Positions 3,251 to 10,540 of a DNA stretch of 32,543 nucleotides are shown in pieces. This DNA comes from an uncultured Opitutaceae bacterium. GTDB taxonomy: Bacteria; Verrucomicrobiota; Verrucomicrobiia; Opitutales; Opitutaceae. The position numbers and the translations under genes were made by a program. The notes below the pieces were generated by a model. It was not told the origin of the DNA. It ran no database searches and saw nothing but the letters and a program-made list of their open reading frames with translations. Numbering within the stretch: the first letter of the stretch is position 1; the number at the start of each line of letters is the position of its first letter. The stretch is taken from the NCBI GenBank assembly GCA_903862935.1, contig CAIOZY010000050.1:1-32543 (forward strand), in the 5' to 3' direction.

Positions 3251-4258
3251 ATGACCTCTAAAGAACGGGTCCTGTGTGCTCTCGCTGGGTCGACCCCCGA
3301 CCGGGTCCCCTTTGCCGAGCACCAGATCGATCCGCCGGTGCTCAAGGCGCTCTTCGGCGAGACCCTGGCGAAGGACCCCGTGCACGTAGCCGACCAGCTG
3401 GGGTTGGACGTGTTGAGTTTCGCGATGCACCCGCCGCTCTTTGTGGAGCTGGAGACCCTTCCCGACGGAATGGCCTACCAGACCTCGGGGCGGTTGCACA
3501 CGCGGGCCGACCTTGGGCTGCTTGACGCGCTCAAGGACCCGACCGACCCCAAGCTCTACGAGGGGCTGGAGGCGCTGGTCGCCCGTGCGGGGAACCGAGC
3601 CGTCGTGGGCAAGTCCCGACTGGGCCTGTCGTCCATGATGATGAGCATGGACCTGGCGGGCTTCTCCTTCGCACTGGCGGACGACCCGGAGCTGATCCTG
3701 ACGATCCTCAAGCGCTACCTGCAATGGGCCGAGGTGGCCGCCCGCGAGATGTCCCGGCGCGGTGCGGATGTCCTTTGGTTTTTCGACGACATCGCCCACC
3801 ATTCCGGCCCGATGATGGCCCCCAAGGTCTTCCGGGAGTTTCTCCTGCCTGCGGTCCGCGAGATGGCCGCGCGCCTGCCCCATCCCTGGATCTTCCACAG
3901 CGACGGGGACCTGACGCTGATCCTAGACGACCTGCTCGGGCTCGGCATGGACGGGCTCCACCCGATCGAGCCTGAGAGCATGTCGCTCAAGCACCTCAAG
4001 CAGCGGATCGGCAGCCGGGTGTGCCTGGTGGGCAACGTCTCGGTTGATATCCTCGCCCGCGGCACCGTCGAGCAGACCCGACTCGAGGTCCGCCGCAGCC
4101 TCAGCGAGGGGGCCCCGGGAGGCGGCTACATGATCACCAGCTCCAACAGCATACCGCCCTACGCTATCCCTGAGAACGTGGCTGCGATGGCGCGGACGAT
4201 CCGCGACGACCCGCTCGCCGTCTACGGCGAGCTTGAAACGAGGAGGGCGACCCCATGA
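3251..4258 (+). CDS. uroporphyrinogen decarboxylase (URO-D) family protein
   Basis: The 335-residue protein has the URO-D/MtaA/CmuA superfamily layout: N-terminal K-E-R-V-x-x-A-L-x-G-x-x-P-D-R-V-P (residues 4-20), central WFFDDIAHHSGPMMAP (176-191), HSDGD at 216-220 and GLHPIEPES at 235-243. Haem-pathway HemE is not indicated: the N-terminal arginine-containing substrate motif of HemE is absent, and this divergent branch is common in Planctomycetes and Verrucomicrobia. Corrinoid methyltransferases of the superfamily have a Cys after the central His; here the segment is H-S-D-G-D, so a MtaA-type zinc site is not obvious. First gene of a five-gene run; its end overlaps the next start by 4 bases, with AGGAGG at 4241-4246 inside it serving the next gene. 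Confidence 0.82.
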   Translation: MTSKERVLCALAGSTPDRVPFAEHQIDPPVLKALFGETLAKDPVHVADQLGLDVLSFAMHPPLFVELETLPDGMAYQTSGRLHTRADLGLLDALKDPTDPKLYEGLEALVARAGNRAVVGKSRLGLSSMMMSMDLAGFSFALADDPELILTILKRYLQWAEVAAREMSRRGADVLWFFDDIAHHSGPMMAPKVFREFLLPAVREMAARLPHPWIFHSDGDLTLILDDLLGLGMDGLHPIEPESMSLKHLKQRIGSRVCLVGNVSVDILARGTVEQTRLEVRRSLSEGAPGGGYMITSSNSIPPYAIPENVAAMARTIRDDPLAVYGELETRRATP

Positions 4259-5466
4259 CCCCATTCAAGATTGCAGTCCCGGATGCGGTCCTCGAGGACC
4301 TCAGGCGCCGGCTCGCGGCGACCCGCTGGCCCCGCCCGGTCCCGCGCGGCGGCGGCTGGGCTTATGGAGCGGACCTCGGCTACATGAAGGACCTGGTGGA
4401 CTACTGGCTCAACCGCTTCGACTGGAGAGCGCAGGAGCGGCGGCTCAACCGCTTCGCGCAGTTCAAGGCGGACGTCGGCGGAATCGGGGTCCACTTCATC
4501 CACGAGAAGGGCAGGGGACCGAATCCGGTCCCGCTGCTCCTCCTGCACGGCTTCCCGTGGTCGGTGGCGATGTTTGAGAAGATCATTCCGATGCTCACCG
4601 ATCCGGCTTCGCACGGTGGCGACCCGGCGGACAGCTTCACGGTCGTCGCACCCTCCCTGATTGGGTTCGGCTTCTCGGACGCCGCTCCCGAGCAGGGCTT
4701 CCAGTTCGTGAAGCAGGCCGACACCCTGCGGGAACTCATGGTGGGGCCGCTCGGCTACACGAGGTTCGGGGTGCAGGGCGGAGACTGGGGCGGGATCATC
4801 TGCACGCCCTTGGGCTACCAGTACCCGCAGAACGTCATCGGCATGAGCCAGAACTACATGGGGGTCACGATCCGCCAGGAGCACACGCCGGCCCCCAACG
4901 AGATCCGGGGCCACGGGATGGAGACCGCGCCCCTGTGCCCGACCGACCCGGAAACCCTCAAGTTCTGGAAGATATTCGAGGCGTGGTGTGAGGGCGAGGG
5001 CGGCTACCGCCACATCCAGATGACCCGGCCTCAGACCCTCGCCTACGCGATGAGCGACTCGCCGGCGGGCCTGGCGGCATGGATCGCCGAGAAATTGCGG
5101 GCCTGGAGTGACTGCGGCGGGGACGTGGAGACGGTTTTCACCAAGGACGAGATTCTCACCACCGTGATGCTCTACTGGCTGGAGTGCTCGTTCTCCTCGG
5201 CGATCCGGATCTACTACGAGACCAAGCACCATCCGTGGAAGCTCAAGCCTGGGGACTGTGTCACGACGCCGGCGGCCTTCACCGCCTTCCCCAAGGAGCA
5301 CACGCCGATCTTCAAGTCCCGCGCGGCAGCCTACTACAGCGACATCCGGCGTTTCACCGAGATGAAGCGGGGCGGGCACTTCGCGGCCTTCGAGTGCCCG
5401 GAGGACCTGGCCGGGGAGCTCCGCGCCTTCTTCCGTCCGCTCCGGGGCAAGGAGACTCTGCCATGA
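4255..5466 (+). CDS. epoxide-hydrolase-like alpha/beta hydrolase with N-terminal EHN domain
   Basis: The 403-residue protein resembles microsomal-type epoxide hydrolases. An N-terminal EHN-like segment covers residues 1-110 (PFKIAVPD, LRRRLAATRWP). The oxyanion motif HGFP is at 98-101, the nucleophile elbow GGDWGG is at 175-180 with Asp177 as predicted nucleophile, and the C-terminal catalytic His375 lies in KRGGHFAAFECPEDL. An aspartate nucleophile fits epoxide hydrolysis through a covalent ester, but this family also includes enzymes with other substrates. The start overlaps the URO-D stop (ATGA), and its own stop overlaps the next start in the same way, so translation is coupled. The substrate is unknown. 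Confidence 0.85.
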   Translation: MTPFKIAVPDAVLEDLRRRLAATRWPRPVPRGGGWAYGADLGYMKDLVDYWLNRFDWRAQERRLNRFAQFKADVGGIGVHFIHEKGRGPNPVPLLLLHGFPWSVAMFEKIIPMLTDPASHGGDPADSFTVVAPSLIGFGFSDAAPEQGFQFVKQADTLRELMVGPLGYTRFGVQGGDWGGIICTPLGYQYPQNVIGMSQNYMGVTIRQEHTPAPNEIRGHGMETAPLCPTDPETLKFWKIFEAWCEGEGGYRHIQMTRPQTLAYAMSDSPAGLAAWIAEKLRAWSDCGGDVETVFTKDEILTTVMLYWLECSFSSAIRIYYETKHHPWKLKPGDCVTTPAAFTAFPKEHTPIFKSRAAAYYSDIRRFTEMKRGGHFAAFECPEDLAGELRAFFRPLRGKETLP

Positions 5467-6455
5467 CCCGGAAGTATTACGACAAGGACGCCGACCTGGC
5501 TGACCTGCGGGGCCAGGTGGTTGCCGTCCTCGGGTATGGAAACCAGGGCCGCTCGCAGGCCCTGAACCTTCGCGACAGCGGGGTCGAGGTGCTGGTCGGC
5601 AGCGGCCAGGCGGACGCCTCAGAGGAGGCCGCCCGAAAGGACGGCTTTGAGGTGTTCTCCTTCGCCGCGTGCGCGGATCGCGCGGACATCCTGATGCTGC
5701 TGCTGCCCGACGAGATTCTCCCGCAGCTGTACTGCGAGCACCTGTTTCCCCGCCTCAGGGCCGGGCAGGCCCTGTGCTTCGCCAGCGGGTACAATGTCTA
5801 CTACAAGGCGATCGAGCTGCCTGTGGGCGTTGACGTGGTCCTCCTGGCGCCCCGCATGATCGGCAGGGCGGTTCGCGAGCTTTTCGTCAAGGGCGGCGGC
5901 GCTCCGGCCCTGATCGCTGTCGAGCAGGACGGCTCCGGCCGGGCCCGGCAGCGGGTGCTCGCGCTGGCCAAGGGGATCGGGGCGACCCGGTCCATGGCCC
6001 TCGACAGCAGCTTCGAGGAGGAGACGGTGGTCGACCTGCTCGGCGAGCAGGCCGGCGGGGGGGCGATGATCTACTTCAACCGCCTGCTCTGTGAGGTGCT
6101 GATCGAGGCGGGCTGCAGCCCGGAGGCGGCGCTTCTGGAGGTCTACGCGAGCGGGGAGAACATCGCCGTCAGCGAGGCCATCAACCAGATGGGGCTATGG
6201 GGCCAGCTTCACCTGCACTCCCACACTAGCCAGTACGGGCATCAGACCCGGGGAAAGCGGTTCGCAACCGAGGAGACCCGCGAGTTGCTCCGGACCCTGG
6301 TCAAGGAGGTCCGCAGCGGCGCCTTCCACCGCGAGTGGTCGGCGGTGCAGAAGGGCGGGATGCGGGAGTTTAAGGAGGTGTGGGCCGAGGGCTTGGCGCA
6401 CCCGGTGATCCGCGCCGAGGAGTCCCTCTACCGGGAACTCGGGAGGAAGGGCTAG
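5463..6455 (+). CDS. ketol-acid reductoisomerase-like protein with altered active site
   Basis: The 330-residue product aligns by eye along its length with class I ketol-acid reductoisomerase (IlvC). The Rossmann motif GYGNQG is at 24-29, GGGAPALIAV at 144-153, and EEETVVDLLGEQ at 185-196 keeps the Mg2+-binding D191 and E195; E226 and S253 also match. Three canonical residues differ: the SGHN histidine is Tyr110, the APKGPG lysine is Arg131 (APRMIG), and the second Glu of the E-x-x-H-E motif is Ser230. Normal acetohydroxyacid isomeroreductase activity is therefore unlikely (inference). NAD(P)-dependent reduction of another 2-keto or ketol acid is more plausible. The start is set by the ATGA overlap and AAGGAG at 5449-5454. 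Confidence 0.85.
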   Translation: MTRKYYDKDADLADLRGQVVAVLGYGNQGRSQALNLRDSGVEVLVGSGQADASEEAARKDGFEVFSFAACADRADILMLLLPDEILPQLYCEHLFPRLRAGQALCFASGYNVYYKAIELPVGVDVVLLAPRMIGRAVRELFVKGGGAPALIAVEQDGSGRARQRVLALAKGIGATRSMALDSSFEEETVVDLLGEQAGGGAMIYFNRLLCEVLIEAGCSPEAALLEVYASGENIAVSEAINQMGLWGQLHLHSHTSQYGHQTRGKRFATEETRELLRTLVKEVRSGAFHREWSAVQKGGMREFKEVWAEGLAHPVIRAEESLYRELGRKG

Positions 6456-6457
6456 CC

Positions 6458-7744
6458 ATGGGGCCCACCCGGCAGATTTCGCTGCGGTACGGGGGTTCGA
6501 CCCGGACCCTGACGATACCGGAGGCAAACGTTCTGGCCGTGGTGGAACCCCGCCGCGTGGAAGCGGGGCCGCCGGCCCTGCTCATCGCACGGGCCCTGGA
6601 CAATCCCGTCGGCAGCCCGCCCCTCTCCGCGCTGGTTAGCCGCGGCGGACGGGTGACGATCCTGGTCGACGACAACACCCGGCCGACCCCGGCCCACCTG
6701 ATCCTGCCCCCGCTCTTGGAGCGGCTCGGCTCGGCGGGCGTGGAACCCGGCGCGGTGACGATTCTCATGGCTGGGGGAACCCACCGTCCGATGACCGAGG
6801 CGGAGACGCTGGCCAAGGTGGGCCCTGAGGTCTTACGGAGCTGCCGGGTCGTGGGCCACCGCTGGATGGAGGCCTCGGAGCTTGCGCAAGTCGGCTGCAC
6901 GGCGAGCGGTGTCCCCGTCGAGGTGAATCGCGCGATCGTCGAGTCGGATCTGTGCATCGGCGTGGGCGACATCTGCCCGCATCCCCTGGCCGGCTGGTCC
7001 GGAGGGGCTAAAATCCTGCAGCCGGGGGCGTGTGGCGCTCGGACCACGGCCGCCACCCATGGGAGGCTGGCCGACTTTCCGGTCCTGTCCTTCCTCGGCA
7101 GGGAGGACTGTCCGGTCCGTCTCGAGATCGAGCACGTGGCCCGCAGGGCGGGGCTGCGCTTCATTGTAAACACGGTCCTCGACGCCGACTCCCGGATAGC
7201 CGGGGTCTTCGCCGGCGACCCCGTGGCTGCCCACCGCGCCGGAGTCGCCTTCGCGCGCGATATCTGGACCCAGACCGTGCCCGACCTGGCCGACATCGTG
7301 GTCGCGAGCTCCTACCCCGCGGACATCGACTTCTGGCAGGCCCAGAAGACACTTCACTTCATGGAGTGCGCGGTCAGGAGGGGCGGGGAGCTGATTCTGC
7401 TCACGCCGTGCCCTGAGGGGATGAGCGGCGAGCCTCACCACAGGCAGATCCTGCTCAAGTACTCCCGGAGTCCGGCCAAGCGGATCCTCGCCGAGGCGAG
7501 GGCCGCGGGGGAATGGGACTTGGCGGGCCTTAACGCGGCAGTGCGAGTCGCCACGAGCCGCGAAGTAGCCGACATAACGATTGTCTCGGACGGCCTGGGG
7601 GCGCAGGACTGCGAGGCCATGGGAGTCGCCTGGGCCGGCAGCCTGGCCGGGGCCCTGGAGGGTGCCTTCAGCAGGCAGGGCCCCGCCGCAAAGGTGCTCG
7701 TCCTGACCCATGGCCCGAAGGTGATTCCCGTTTGCGGCGCCTGA
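6458..7744 (+). CDS. LarA-family nickel-pincer racemase/epimerase homologue
   Basis: The 428-residue protein has every residue I can check of the lactate racemase LarA site: DDNTRP with D72 and R75, GTHR with H109, then H175, K185 (the lysine that binds the nickel-pincer nucleotide) and H201 (nickel ligand). The H-to-K (10) and K-to-H (16) spacings match those of Lactiplantibacillus plantarum LarA (H174, K184, H200). It should interconvert D and L forms of a 2-hydroxy acid. Many LarA homologues act on other acids, so lactate is not assured. The cofactor genes larB, larC and larE are not in this window. A strong RBS (AGGAAGG, 6444-6450) precedes the ATG, two bases after the upstream stop. Confidence 0.85.
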
Positions 7745-7755
7745 ACGATTTTCCC

Positions 7756-8820
7756 ATGTCCGGCACGGCCGACGTCCCCGCACCGATCCCCGCAGAGGTT
7801 CACTCCCGGTTCCGGTTCCTGCGAAACCTCGTGGGCAACACACCGCTTGTTGCGATCGACTACCGCTACCGGAGCAGGCCCCGCACGCTCTACGCCAAGG
7901 CCGAACACTACAACCTCACCGGCAGCATCAAGGACCGCATGGCCCTCCACATCCTCGAGCGGGCCTACGCCGCGGGGCGGATCGGGCCGGGGGACCGGAT
8001 CGCCGAGGCGACGAGCGGCAACACGGGGATATCGTTTTCGGCCCTGGGCCGGGCCCTTGGGCACGAGGTCACGATCTTCATGCCGGACTGGATGAGCCGC
8101 GAGCGCGCGGACCTGATCCGCAGTTTCGGGGCCAGGATTGTGCCGGTGTCCCGGGAGGAGGGGGGCTTTATCGGGAGCATCCGCAAGAGCGAGGAGTTGG
8201 CGGCCCGGGACCGGCGCGTGTTCCTTCCCTGCCAGTTCTCGAACTCCGCCAACTCCGAGGCCCACGAGCATACGACCGGCCCCGAGATCTTGGCTCAGCT
8301 GGAGGAGGGTTTCGGGGCCAGTCCCGAGGCGTTCGTGGCGGGCGTGGGGACCGGCGGGACGATCATGGGGGTGGGACGGTGCCTGCGCGCCCAGAAGGCG
8401 GGAGTGCGGATCGTCCCGGTCGAGCCGGCCGAGTCTCCGACCTTGACCACCGGCCACAAGGTGGGAAGGCATCGCATCCAGGGGATCTCCGACGAGTTCA
8501 TCCCCGCAATCCTGGACTTGGGGGCGATCGATCCGGTCGTTTCCGTGCACGACGGCGACGCGATCCTTATGGCCCAGAAACTGGCGGCCGGTCTTGGGAT
8601 TGCCGTCGGGATCTCCTCGGGTGGAAACTTCGTGGCGGCTGCGGCGGTCCAGGAACAGCTTGGTGGCGACGCGGTTGTCGTCACGGTGTTCCCCGACGAC
8701 AACAAGAAGTACCTATCCACGGACCTCCTGAGGGAGGAACCGGCCCAGGGGACCTTCCTTACCCCCGAGATCGAGCTGCAGGGCTTCAGGAGCTGGCGCG
8801 GAACTCCGGGGCGGGACTGA
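7756..8820 (+). CDS. cysteine-synthase-like PLP-dependent enzyme (fold type II)
   Basis: The 354-residue protein is a beta-substituted-alanine synthase family member. LVGNTPLV is near residue 25-32, the PLP lysine is K59 in TGSIKDR, the asparagine loop is SGNTG (87-91), the phosphate cup is GVGTGGT (196-202), and GISSGGN and [11 protein letters not shown] lie near the C-terminus. It should perform beta-elimination/replacement on an activated serine or cysteine. It is more diverged than housekeeping CysK, and like specialised members (SbnA, cystathionine beta-synthase) it may use another nucleophile. The chosen ATG lies 11 bases after the LarA-like stop; an ATG at 7732 would lie inside that gene. 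There is no clear RBS, so translation is probably coupled. Last gene of the five-gene run. Confidence 0.85.
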
Positions 8821-8845: not shown

Positions 8846-10540
8846 TCAGTAGTGGAAGCTGCTGTGCCCTATGAACTCGCGCAAGATCGAGGTCGGCGGC
8901 ACGGCCTGCTCGGGCACGCTCAGAAAACTCGACAGGAATGCCTGCAGGCGCCGGGCCTCTGCGTACTGCGGGTGGTGCGGCTTGATCTCAGCCAGGACCG
9001 GCTCGACGAAGGGCTTCAGGACCGCCAGCTCGTAGTCGAGTGCTGAGTTGAAAGCGATGTCGGCCTCCTGCTGGAAGGGGAAGATCCACTTCTGCTCACC
9101 CCGGCGCACGCTGGGCCACATGTTGAGGGTGGTGAGGGCAGAATTGCCGCGGAAGTTGTTGTCCCGAACCATCCTGCGAACCAGGCGGTTGTCTGTGGTG
9201 GAGATGCGGTTGTTGGAGTCCAGGTTGAGCTGGGTGAGGGCGCTGATGTAGATCCGGAACTTGTGCGCCTGGGGAATGGCCTGGGTCAGGCGGGGGTTCA
9301 GGCCGTGGATCCCTTCGATCAGGACGATCTGGTCGGGCTCGATCTTGAGCTTGTCGCCCTTGTACTCCCGCTTGCCCTTCTCGAAGTTGAAGCTCGGCAC
9401 CTTGACGTCGCCGCCCTTGTCCAGCTGGGCAAGATGCTCGTTGAGCAGCGCCAGATCCACAGTCTCGACGTTTTCGAAGTCGAGCTTGCCGTGCTCGTCG
9501 GTCGGGGTCTTCTCCCGGTCGACGAAGTAGTTGTCGACCGAGATCGTCACCGGCCTCAGACCGTTGACCCGCAGCTGCACAGCCAGGCGCTTGGCGAAGG
9601 TGGTCTTCCCCGAGGAGGACGGCCCGGCAATCAGGGCCCACTTGATCGCCTCGCGGTTCTTGTAAATGTGGTCGGCTATCTCGGCGATCTTCTTCTCGTG
9701 GAATGCCTCGGAGATCTTGATAAAGTCGCCGATCTCGCGGCCGGCGATGATCTCATTGAGCCTGCCGACGGTGTTGACGCCGAGGAGCCGCCCCCACTTC
9801 TTGTGCTCCTTGAAGATCTCGAACAGATGGGGCTGCGGCTCGAAGGGCGGAAGCTCCTTGGGCCGGTCGCGGTCCGGGATCTGCAGGACGAAGCCCTGCG
9901 AGTACAAGATCAGCTTGAATAGGGACAGGGCCCCCGTGCTCGATGCGAGCGGGCCGTGGTCCAGGTCGGAGAACTCCTCGCACCAGTAGGTTGCGACCTT
10001 GGGCGGGTTGCTGAAGCGCAACAGGTTGAACTTGTCCCATTGCTTCTCGCGCTCAAAGCGCTGGACGACCTGGGTGAAGGCGATCTTGCGCCGCTCGATC
10101 GGGACATCACGATCCACCACCGCCCTCATGTGGGTGTCGATTGCCTGAAGCTGGGGCTCGGTGATGCCCGCGTCCCCGTTCACCCCGAAGCTGCAGAAGA
10201 ATCCCGAGCCGAGCGAGTGCTCGATTGCAAAGCGGCCGTCGGGGAAGAGTTCCTTGACGACTTTGGCCAGCAGGAAGCACACGGACCGTCCATAAATCTG
10301 GAACCCCTGGGAGTCGGCCCGGGTGAGCAGAACGACCGTGCTGTCCACCTCGACCGGGTAGGACAGGGACACGGCGTCGTTGTTGACCAGCGCCCCCACG
10401 TAATCGAGGCCTTCCTGGGATCGGTGCTGGGGCAGCAGATCCCGTACGCGGGTTCCCACTGCGCAGCGCACCTGGGCTCCGCCGTCCAGGGTGACCGTGA
10501 TCGTGTTGAGGTTTGTATCCATACCAGGGGCTCGGGACAT
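8846..10540 (-). CDS. TGS-domain nucleoside (uridine-type) kinase
   Basis: The 564-residue protein combines an N-terminal TGS-like beta-grasp segment (about 10-75), a ThrRS/AlaRS second-additional-domain-like region (about 80-240) and a uridine-kinase/phosphoribulokinase-type P-loop domain. The Walker A is GPSSSGKTT at 306-314, followed by SVDNYFVDRE (334-343) and VLIEGIHGLNP (406-416). It likely phosphorylates a nucleoside using a nucleoside triphosphate in the cytoplasm; such fused kinases occur in several bacterial phyla. An alternative ATG lies at 10522 (MDTNLN). It converges with the PLP gene (25 bases between stops), so it is not part of that operon. Confidence 0.85.
   Translation of the reverse strand: MSRAPGMDTNLNTITVTLDGGAQVRCAVGTRVRDLLPQHRSQEGLDYVGALVNNDAVSLSYPVEVDSTVVLLTRADSQGFQIYGRSVCFLLAKVVKELFPDGRFAIEHSLGSGFFCSFGVNGDAGITEPQLQAIDTHMRAVVDRDVPIERRKIAFTQVVQRFEREKQWDKFNLLRFSNPPKVATYWCEEFSDLDHGPLASSTGALSLFKLILYSQGFVLQIPDRDRPKELPPFEPQPHLFEIFKEHKKWGRLLGVNTVGRLNEIIAGREIGDFIKISEAFHEKKIAEIADHIYKNREAIKWALIAGPSSSGKTTFAKRLAVQLRVNGLRPVTISVDNYFVDREKTPTDEHGKLDFENVETVDLALLNEHLAQLDKGGDVKVPSFNFEKGKREYKGDKLKIEPDQIVLIEGIHGLNPRLTQAIPQAHKFRIYISALTQLNLDSNNRISTTDNRLVRRMVRDNNFRGNSALTTLNMWPSVRRGEQKWIFPFQQEADIAFNSALDYELAVLKPFVEPVLAEIKPHHPQYAEARRLQAFLSSFLSVPEQAVPPTSILREFIGHSSFHY

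Follow-up and report, generated by a model that had tools for sequence, protein, structure and literature searches.

Several characterized enzymes provide reference points for the gene cluster discussed herein. Fn1055 converts cysteine and water to serine and H2S, with T73, S74, Q147, and D232 as key residues (PMC12940168), and the same reaction is reported elsewhere (PMC9600241). Substrates of the LarA family are 2-hydroxy acids, malate, tartrate, and sugar acids among them, and the roles of LarA residues H108 and H174 have been described (PMC11770544). BurG, which is a homologue of KARI enzymes, converts hydroxypyruvate to glycerate with NADH at a kcat of 16.3 per minute (PMC9359912). Relatives of all three are encoded together with a URO-D family protein and an epoxide hydrolase in a five-gene operon at positions 3251-8820 of a 32,543-nucleotide stretch of DNA (hereafter, the window) from an uncultured Opitutaceae bacterium of the phylum Verrucomicrobiota (assembly GCA_903862935.1, contig CAIOZY010000050.1). 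The operon itself is confirmed, and this set of enzymes is a new combination within what was searched. We tentatively propose, with a probability of about 0.3, that it serves peripheral metabolism and handles a small 2,3-dihydroxy or 2-keto-3-hydroxy acid at the glycerate and serine level, where hydroxypyruvate and tartronate semialdehyde might also take part.

The operon is a co-directional run on the plus strand. Its genes encode the URO-D family protein (3251..4258; 335 aa), an epoxide hydrolase of the EHN/microsomal type (4255..5466; 403 aa), a KARI-like protein from a divergent clade with an APRMxG motif (5463..6455; 330 aa), a LarA-like 2-hydroxyacid racemase/epimerase (6458..7744; 428 aa), and a CysK-like pyridoxal phosphate-dependent enzyme (7756..8820; 354 aa from its ATG, or 362 aa from an alternative in-frame TTG upstream at 7732). 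Two overlaps of 4 bases are followed by gaps of 2 and 11 bases, exactly as in an earlier reading of the DNA made from the sequence alone (the sequence-only reading). The five family names given there are also correct, because every call exceeds its Pfam gathering score: URO-D (89.9 vs 23.9 bits), EHN (120.3 vs 22.8), KARI_N (186.8 vs 20.6) and KARI_C (96.6 vs 29.1), Lar_N (182.9 vs 23.3) and LarA_C (42.5 vs 25), and PALP (226.3 vs 35). Strong internal ribosome-binding sites, which that reading had claimed, precede three of the four internal genes (GAGGAGG, AAGGAG, and GGAGGAAGG), and none is seen at the start of the CysK-like gene. No sigma-70-type consensus promoter was found for the run. A single terminator-like site lies within the LarA-like gene, against 2.4 expected by chance, which is a count made weakly informative by the base composition. 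GC content at third codon positions is 0.86-0.91 across the five genes, which lies within the spread seen for other open frames in the window. The nearest flanking open frames, 2403-2999 and 8846-10540, are both on the minus strand, and thus the run comprises exactly five genes. The latter frame encodes a PRK-family protein. Farther upstream on the minus strand, 1278-2213 encodes a protein of 311 residues that lacks a Pfam match at 0.001. The host assembly has 62 contigs (3.35 Mb, 95.55% complete), and the window is its contig 50 (the host is genome G000 in our numbering, which is also used for other genomes and contigs below).

Conservation of the five-gene neighborhood was the check proposed beforehand, and within our reach the outcome is negative. 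Apart from the operon's own locus, 38 loci of at least 6 kb were compared, and at an E value of 1e-5 or better none carries two or more of the five families; 36 have one family and two have none. These loci include several from the host genome, and they were obtained by sampling genomes of this phylum, from plasmid records, and through a single pattern scan across GTDB species genomes. Because most were chosen by a match to one of the five genes, rare partial clusters elsewhere could escape this test. When the operon DNA was compared with 57 genomes (the host and 56 relatives), 29 matched, outside the host through short stretches that fall mostly in the ilvC part. Within its own genome, the operon DNA matches a URO-D paralogue (C25), the canonical ilvC gene (C13), and another LarA-like gene (C10).

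Close relatives of the KARI-like, LarA-like, and CysK-like proteins are rare. Among 288 genomes of the phylum, the LarA-like protein finds two at E <= 1e-60 (the host and G173, at 39%), and the CysK-like protein finds two at E <= 1e-95 (the host itself and G255, 66-67% identical). The 20 kb fetched around the CysK gene of G255 contain none of the other four families. Top-ranked identities among 72,556 plasmid records are 55.8% for the CysK-like protein (521 matching records), 47.4% for the hydrolase (658), 45.5% for the KARI-like protein (118), 36.3% for the LarA-like protein (19), and 27.9% over 55% of its length for the URO-D protein (one record); neighborhoods were fetched for eight of these hits. 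One Halomarina plasmid (BND7) was matched by both the KARI-like and the CysK-like protein, with a KARI-like gene and an ordinary-looking cysK gene (41%) about 190 kb apart. A search of the open-access literature yielded no paper joining these five families, and to that extent the earlier statement that no described pathway has this set still stands. Because the same five-gene set was found nowhere else that we searched, the operon, which is known from one genome so far, probably encodes a local, unassigned route for handling a small hydroxy acid and not a pathway that is widespread but undiscovered.

The KARI-like protein is distinct from the canonical IlvC of this genome, which is encoded elsewhere (G000:C13) and is 38% identical to it. 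Its score is above the cut-off of the TIGR00465 ilvC model (250.4 vs 226.15 bits) and below that of NCBIfam NF004017 (282.7 vs 336 bits). In IlvC, the APKGPGH motif holds the catalytic Lys, and CLHE holds the fourth metal-site Glu. The KARI-like protein has APRMIGRA at the first of these sites (APRMIG for APKGPG), YASGE in place of CLHE, and LHSHTSQYG in place of a VSETAKYG-type segment. It retains the Asp and Glu of DLxxEQ along with the first C-terminal Glu and the Ser. We considered a simple loss of the fourth metal Glu in the KARI-like protein and then softened that view, since a MAFFT alignment of 24 rows pairs this Glu with E232 of the clade after a two-residue insertion. The Glu of YASGE may take over the fourth site. 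The other alignment of KARI-like proteins holds clade members only, which makes it uninformative on this point.

The same signature is present in G090, which belongs to the same order, in a Phycisphaerales genome (L005), in two Sulfitobacter plasmids, and in Halomarina and Haladaptatus plasmids. In a tree that includes PDB 6jcv, eight APRMxG rows group apart from 16 other KARI rows with support of 100/100, and the group was recovered in 100% of 200 bootstrap trees. PDB 6jcv, a "putative ketol-acid reductoisomerase 2" presumably from Saccharolobus solfataricus, falls in this clade with the motifs APRMVG, YASGE, and HHSTTSQYG, and it is 40% identical to the KARI-like protein. A hidden Markov model built from three clade members matched 12 of the 288 phylum genomes at E <= 1e-90 (a list from which G090 is absent), with the signature only at the locus in the window itself. 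A KARI search matched 84 of 95 genomes (the host and 94 relatives), nearly all through canonical ilvC as judged from the loci returned and two further stretches rather than from every listed place. A pattern scan with the KARI-like protein over 84,980 species, one genome each, which reaches close relatives only, produced seven loci, one of them with the signature.

The neighborhoods of clade members offer a hint about function. On Sulfitobacter, Halomarina, and Haladaptatus plasmids, the KARI-like genes are annotated as ilvC (L066 9001-9984, L067 8992-9987, and L068 8974-10002). The Halomarina gene lies beside genes for a talarate/galactarate-dehydratase-like protein (199.5 bits, cut-off 500), an APH-type kinase, and an enolase whose score clears the model threshold. 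The KARI-like gene of Haladaptatus YSMS36 is near a gene for a protein most similar to aldolases of the GarL type (234 bits against cut-offs of 393 and 407), and that of Sulfitobacter dubius is close to a TRAP transporter and to a gene of the glycerate-2-kinase type (209.8 bits against a cut-off of 550). GarL-type cleavage yields tartronate semialdehyde, which a reductase then converts to glycerate. These sugar-acid and glycerate neighbors fit with a step from tartronate semialdehyde or hydroxypyruvate to glycerate, and the APRMxG KARI-like genes may encode candidate reductases that form glycerate from one of these compounds. BurG (PDB 7pcc), a cyclopropanol synthase, lends support by analogy through its reduction of hydroxypyruvate, and it puts the KARI fold to use outside branched-chain synthesis. 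BurG scores 274 bits against the clade profile, below 30 other KARI sequences, and no counterpart of its sulfonium substrate is known for this operon. In a search of the open-access literature for KARI enzymes together with tartronate semialdehyde, the one paper found on KARI enzymes was PMC4353338, where the single mention is the title of a reference. As a separate observation, a plasmid of Sulfitobacter sp. DSM 110093 carries a KARI-like copy with a shortened start (L070 9001-9855) that is annotated as hypothetical and has insertion sequence transposase genes on both sides.

The closest solved relatives of the CysK-like protein are PDB 5b53 (393 bits) and 5b55 (391 bits), and the next distinct protein scores 242 bits. 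We take 5b53, along with 5z5c, to be Fn1055, a cysteine (hydroxyl) lyase of Fusobacterium nucleatum. A residue-by-residue alignment with 5b53, for which Fn1055 residue numbers were transferred by counting along the printed chain, reveals that the equivalents of T73, S74, Q147, and D232 are all conserved. The special Asp lies within a GISDEFIP segment, where 5b55 has Asn, and a PCQFSN segment aligns to 5b53 in the same test. The similarity to Fn1055 also extends beyond the usual end of CysK. Because the Thr-Ser pair, the Gln, and the Asp are kept and 5b53 is by far the best match among solved proteins, we assign the protein by sequence as an Fn1055-type cysteine (hydroxyl) lyase. Nowhere else that we searched is a protein of this type linked to the other four families.

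For the LarA-like protein, the best named model is that of the LarAH6 malate racemase (319 bits, under the cut-off of 500), and the nearest solved relative is the LarAH6/Mar2 malate racemase (PDB 6d6z, 198.7 bits). K184 and H200 of LarA are residues of the binding site for the nickel-pincer nucleotide (NPN) cofactor. The equivalents of these residues and of H108 and H174 are all kept in the LarA-like protein, and the four are shared with 6d6z.

The URO-D protein is a distant relative of the methylcobamide methyltransferases of the MtaA/CmuA type. It reaches 62.8 bits against the NCBIfam MtaA model, far below the cut-off of 400, its NCBIfam CmuA match likewise falls far short, and it aligns to MtaA (methylcobamide:coenzyme M methyltransferase, PDB 4ay7) only across the C-terminal half. 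In MtaA and CmuA, zinc is bound by an H-x-C motif and a C-terminal Cys. These cysteines are replaced in the URO-D protein, which has H-S-D (in HSDG) for H-x-C and S-S-N-S at the place of the C-terminal Cys, and we consequently dropped thiol or coenzyme M chemistry from consideration. A paralogue at G000:C25 is 65% identical and is followed by a gene for a corrinoid protein, and the host genome has five B12-binding_2 matches over the cut-off. Given these findings, methyl transfer with a corrinoid partner encoded at another locus is possible. The predicted structure of the URO-D protein alone had a mean predicted local distance difference test (pLDDT) value of 41 and was therefore set aside. The C25 locus (L043, G000:C25:5000-24900) clusters three URO-D-like proteins with the corrinoid protein and also carries genes that by eye resemble altronate dehydratase, the enolase superfamily, short-chain dehydrogenases/reductases, and transaldolase; it possibly serves the breakdown of a methylated sugar acid.

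The epoxide hydrolase is a full-length enzyme of the EHN type that scores 295.5 bits to PDB 5f4z. Its EHN domain, Asp nucleophile, and triad His are all present, and it keeps the GGDWG and GGHFAAFE segments.

These assignments can be arranged into a putative pathway. The epoxide hydrolase would convert an epoxide to a vicinal diol, and the LarA-like enzyme would invert the configuration at C2 of the hydroxy acid. The KARI-like enzyme would use NAD(P)(H) to turn 2-hydroxy forms into 2-keto forms or the reverse, the Fn1055-type enzyme would make or use serine by way of aminoacrylate, and the URO-D protein would transfer a methyl group onto or off a corrinoid protein that comes from another locus, such as that on C25. 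The sequence-only reading had envisaged an amino-acid-like compound containing an epoxide or a 2-hydroxy acid. Small 2,3-dihydroxy acids would appear to fit the sharpened identities at least as well, and the glycerate/serine-level proposal is the one that uses most of the evidence.

Several findings weigh against this proposal. No other locus links two of the families, and therefore the argument for a shared pathway comes from the operon layout. LarC (PF01969) finds no match in the host genome, where the best matches to LarE (40.5 bits, cut-off 150) and LarB (23.7 bits, cut-off 175) are below threshold, and the cofactor of the LarA step may therefore be missing. The URO-D protein is missing the zinc cysteines, and there is no corrinoid gene within the operon. 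Structurally solved EHN-type hydrolases act on quite different epoxides. Within the KARI-like clade, 6jcv carries the name of a ketol-acid reductoisomerase and presumably has acetolactate activity, and by eye the neighbors of the clade members in G090, the Phycisphaerales genome, and Haladaptatus halobius give no hint of glycerate metabolism.

It is equally likely that the operon is a loose assembly in which one promoter drives five enzymes with separate housekeeping or detoxification roles, such as H2S/cysteine balance, epoxide detoxification, and methyl recycling, rather than a single pathway. The failure of any of the 38 other loci to pair two families favors this alternative, as does the solitary state of the closest CysK relative in G255, and the KARI relatives of G090 and the Phycisphaerales genome also sit among seemingly unrelated genes as judged by eye. 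However, the two 4-base overlaps and the 2-base gap suggest selection for coupled expression.

A less probable alternative is that the operon builds a small metabolite of an amino-acid-like or epoxy/hydroxy-acid kind, for which the CysK-like enzyme would add or remove a beta-substituent and the KARI-like enzyme would carry out a BurG-like rearrangement. CysK-like enzymes are common in natural product pathways, and this speaks for such a role. Natural product pathways have recruited homologues of KARI as well, as exemplified by a paralogue for valanimycin (PMC4353338) and by BurG (PMC9359912). However, none of the five genes encodes a ligase, synthetase, exporter, or resistance factor, the flanking genes are one for a PRK-family protein (8846-10540) and one with no Pfam match (1278-2213), and the informative neighbors of the KARI-like clade elsewhere look catabolic. 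Least plausible, and in our view quite improbable, is that the KARI-like protein is a second true acetohydroxyacid isomeroreductase in an auxiliary unit for branched-chain or sulfur amino acids, because its TIGR00465 score and its shared clade with 6jcv are countered by the NF004017 score, the canonical ilvC gene on C13, the APRMIGR motif and changed C-terminal Glu segment, and the absence of any other branched-chain gene from the operon.

The LarA-like protein raises an issue that extends beyond this operon. All 13 genomes of the genus, the host included, give no match to LarC, and four of them (the host, G006, G010, and G012) have a strong match to Lar_N. Among the 95 genomes, 26 match Lar_N at E <= 0.001 and 15 of these at E < 1e-50. 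LarC is present in five of the 15 (G024, G045, G064, G087, and G091), and the remaining ten have no LarC match (the host, G006, G010, G012, G021, G027, G033, G050, G051, and G089). The compared protein of each of the 15 genomes keeps the four NPN-site residues. The other 11 genomes match Lar_N more weakly, perhaps through fragments or different branches of the family, and do not enter this count; five of them have LarC (G020, G022, G048, G059, and G067). LarB and LarE were sought in the host genome, and the relatives were judged by LarC. Because the ten genomes are 92 to 100% complete, missing sequence is unlikely to be the cause for all of them. With ten of the 15 genomes giving no LarC match, a cofactor-orphan state could be common in this order.

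The reverse case, in which LarB, LarE, and LarC occur without LarA, has been noted in about 15% of genomes (PMC11796402). No report of LarA without LarB, LarC, and LarE was found in the open-access literature, including passages of PMC7583248 and PMC11770544. The host also encodes two LarA-like paralogues that keep the NPN-site residues (G000:C10:3749-4348 and G000:C53:64402-65016). We consider it unlikely, if conceivable, that the operon enzyme and these paralogues work without the known NPN cofactor genes. If they do, perhaps NPN would arrive by another route or by uptake, or the same residues might be used for different chemistry. A comparison of the neighborhoods of 17 LarA-like genes revealed nothing that we recognized as a substitute for LarB, LarC, or LarE; it yielded one recurring set (G000:C10 and G027:C14) and two further families that are each common to two loci. 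At the two loci of the recurring set (L086 2390-4993 on G000:C10 and L129 on G027:C14), which belong to two genera and share further neighbors, a gene that looks UxaA-like by eye adjoins or is near the LarA-like gene. Elsewhere, G059:C1:3520960-3521304 matches Lar_N in part, contains two TGA codons in frame, and is probably a decayed gene.

As a new combination of known families, the operon has local interest for as long as neither a substrate nor another instance has emerged. The more general leads are the APRMxG KARI clade and the LarA genes that lack known cofactor genes. Members of the former are annotated as ilvC and reside partly in sugar-acid and glycerate clusters, and thus automatic ilvC annotation may mislead there. 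LarA homologues with intact cofactor-site residues and no LarC match raise the question of where these organisms obtain the nickel-pincer nucleotide.

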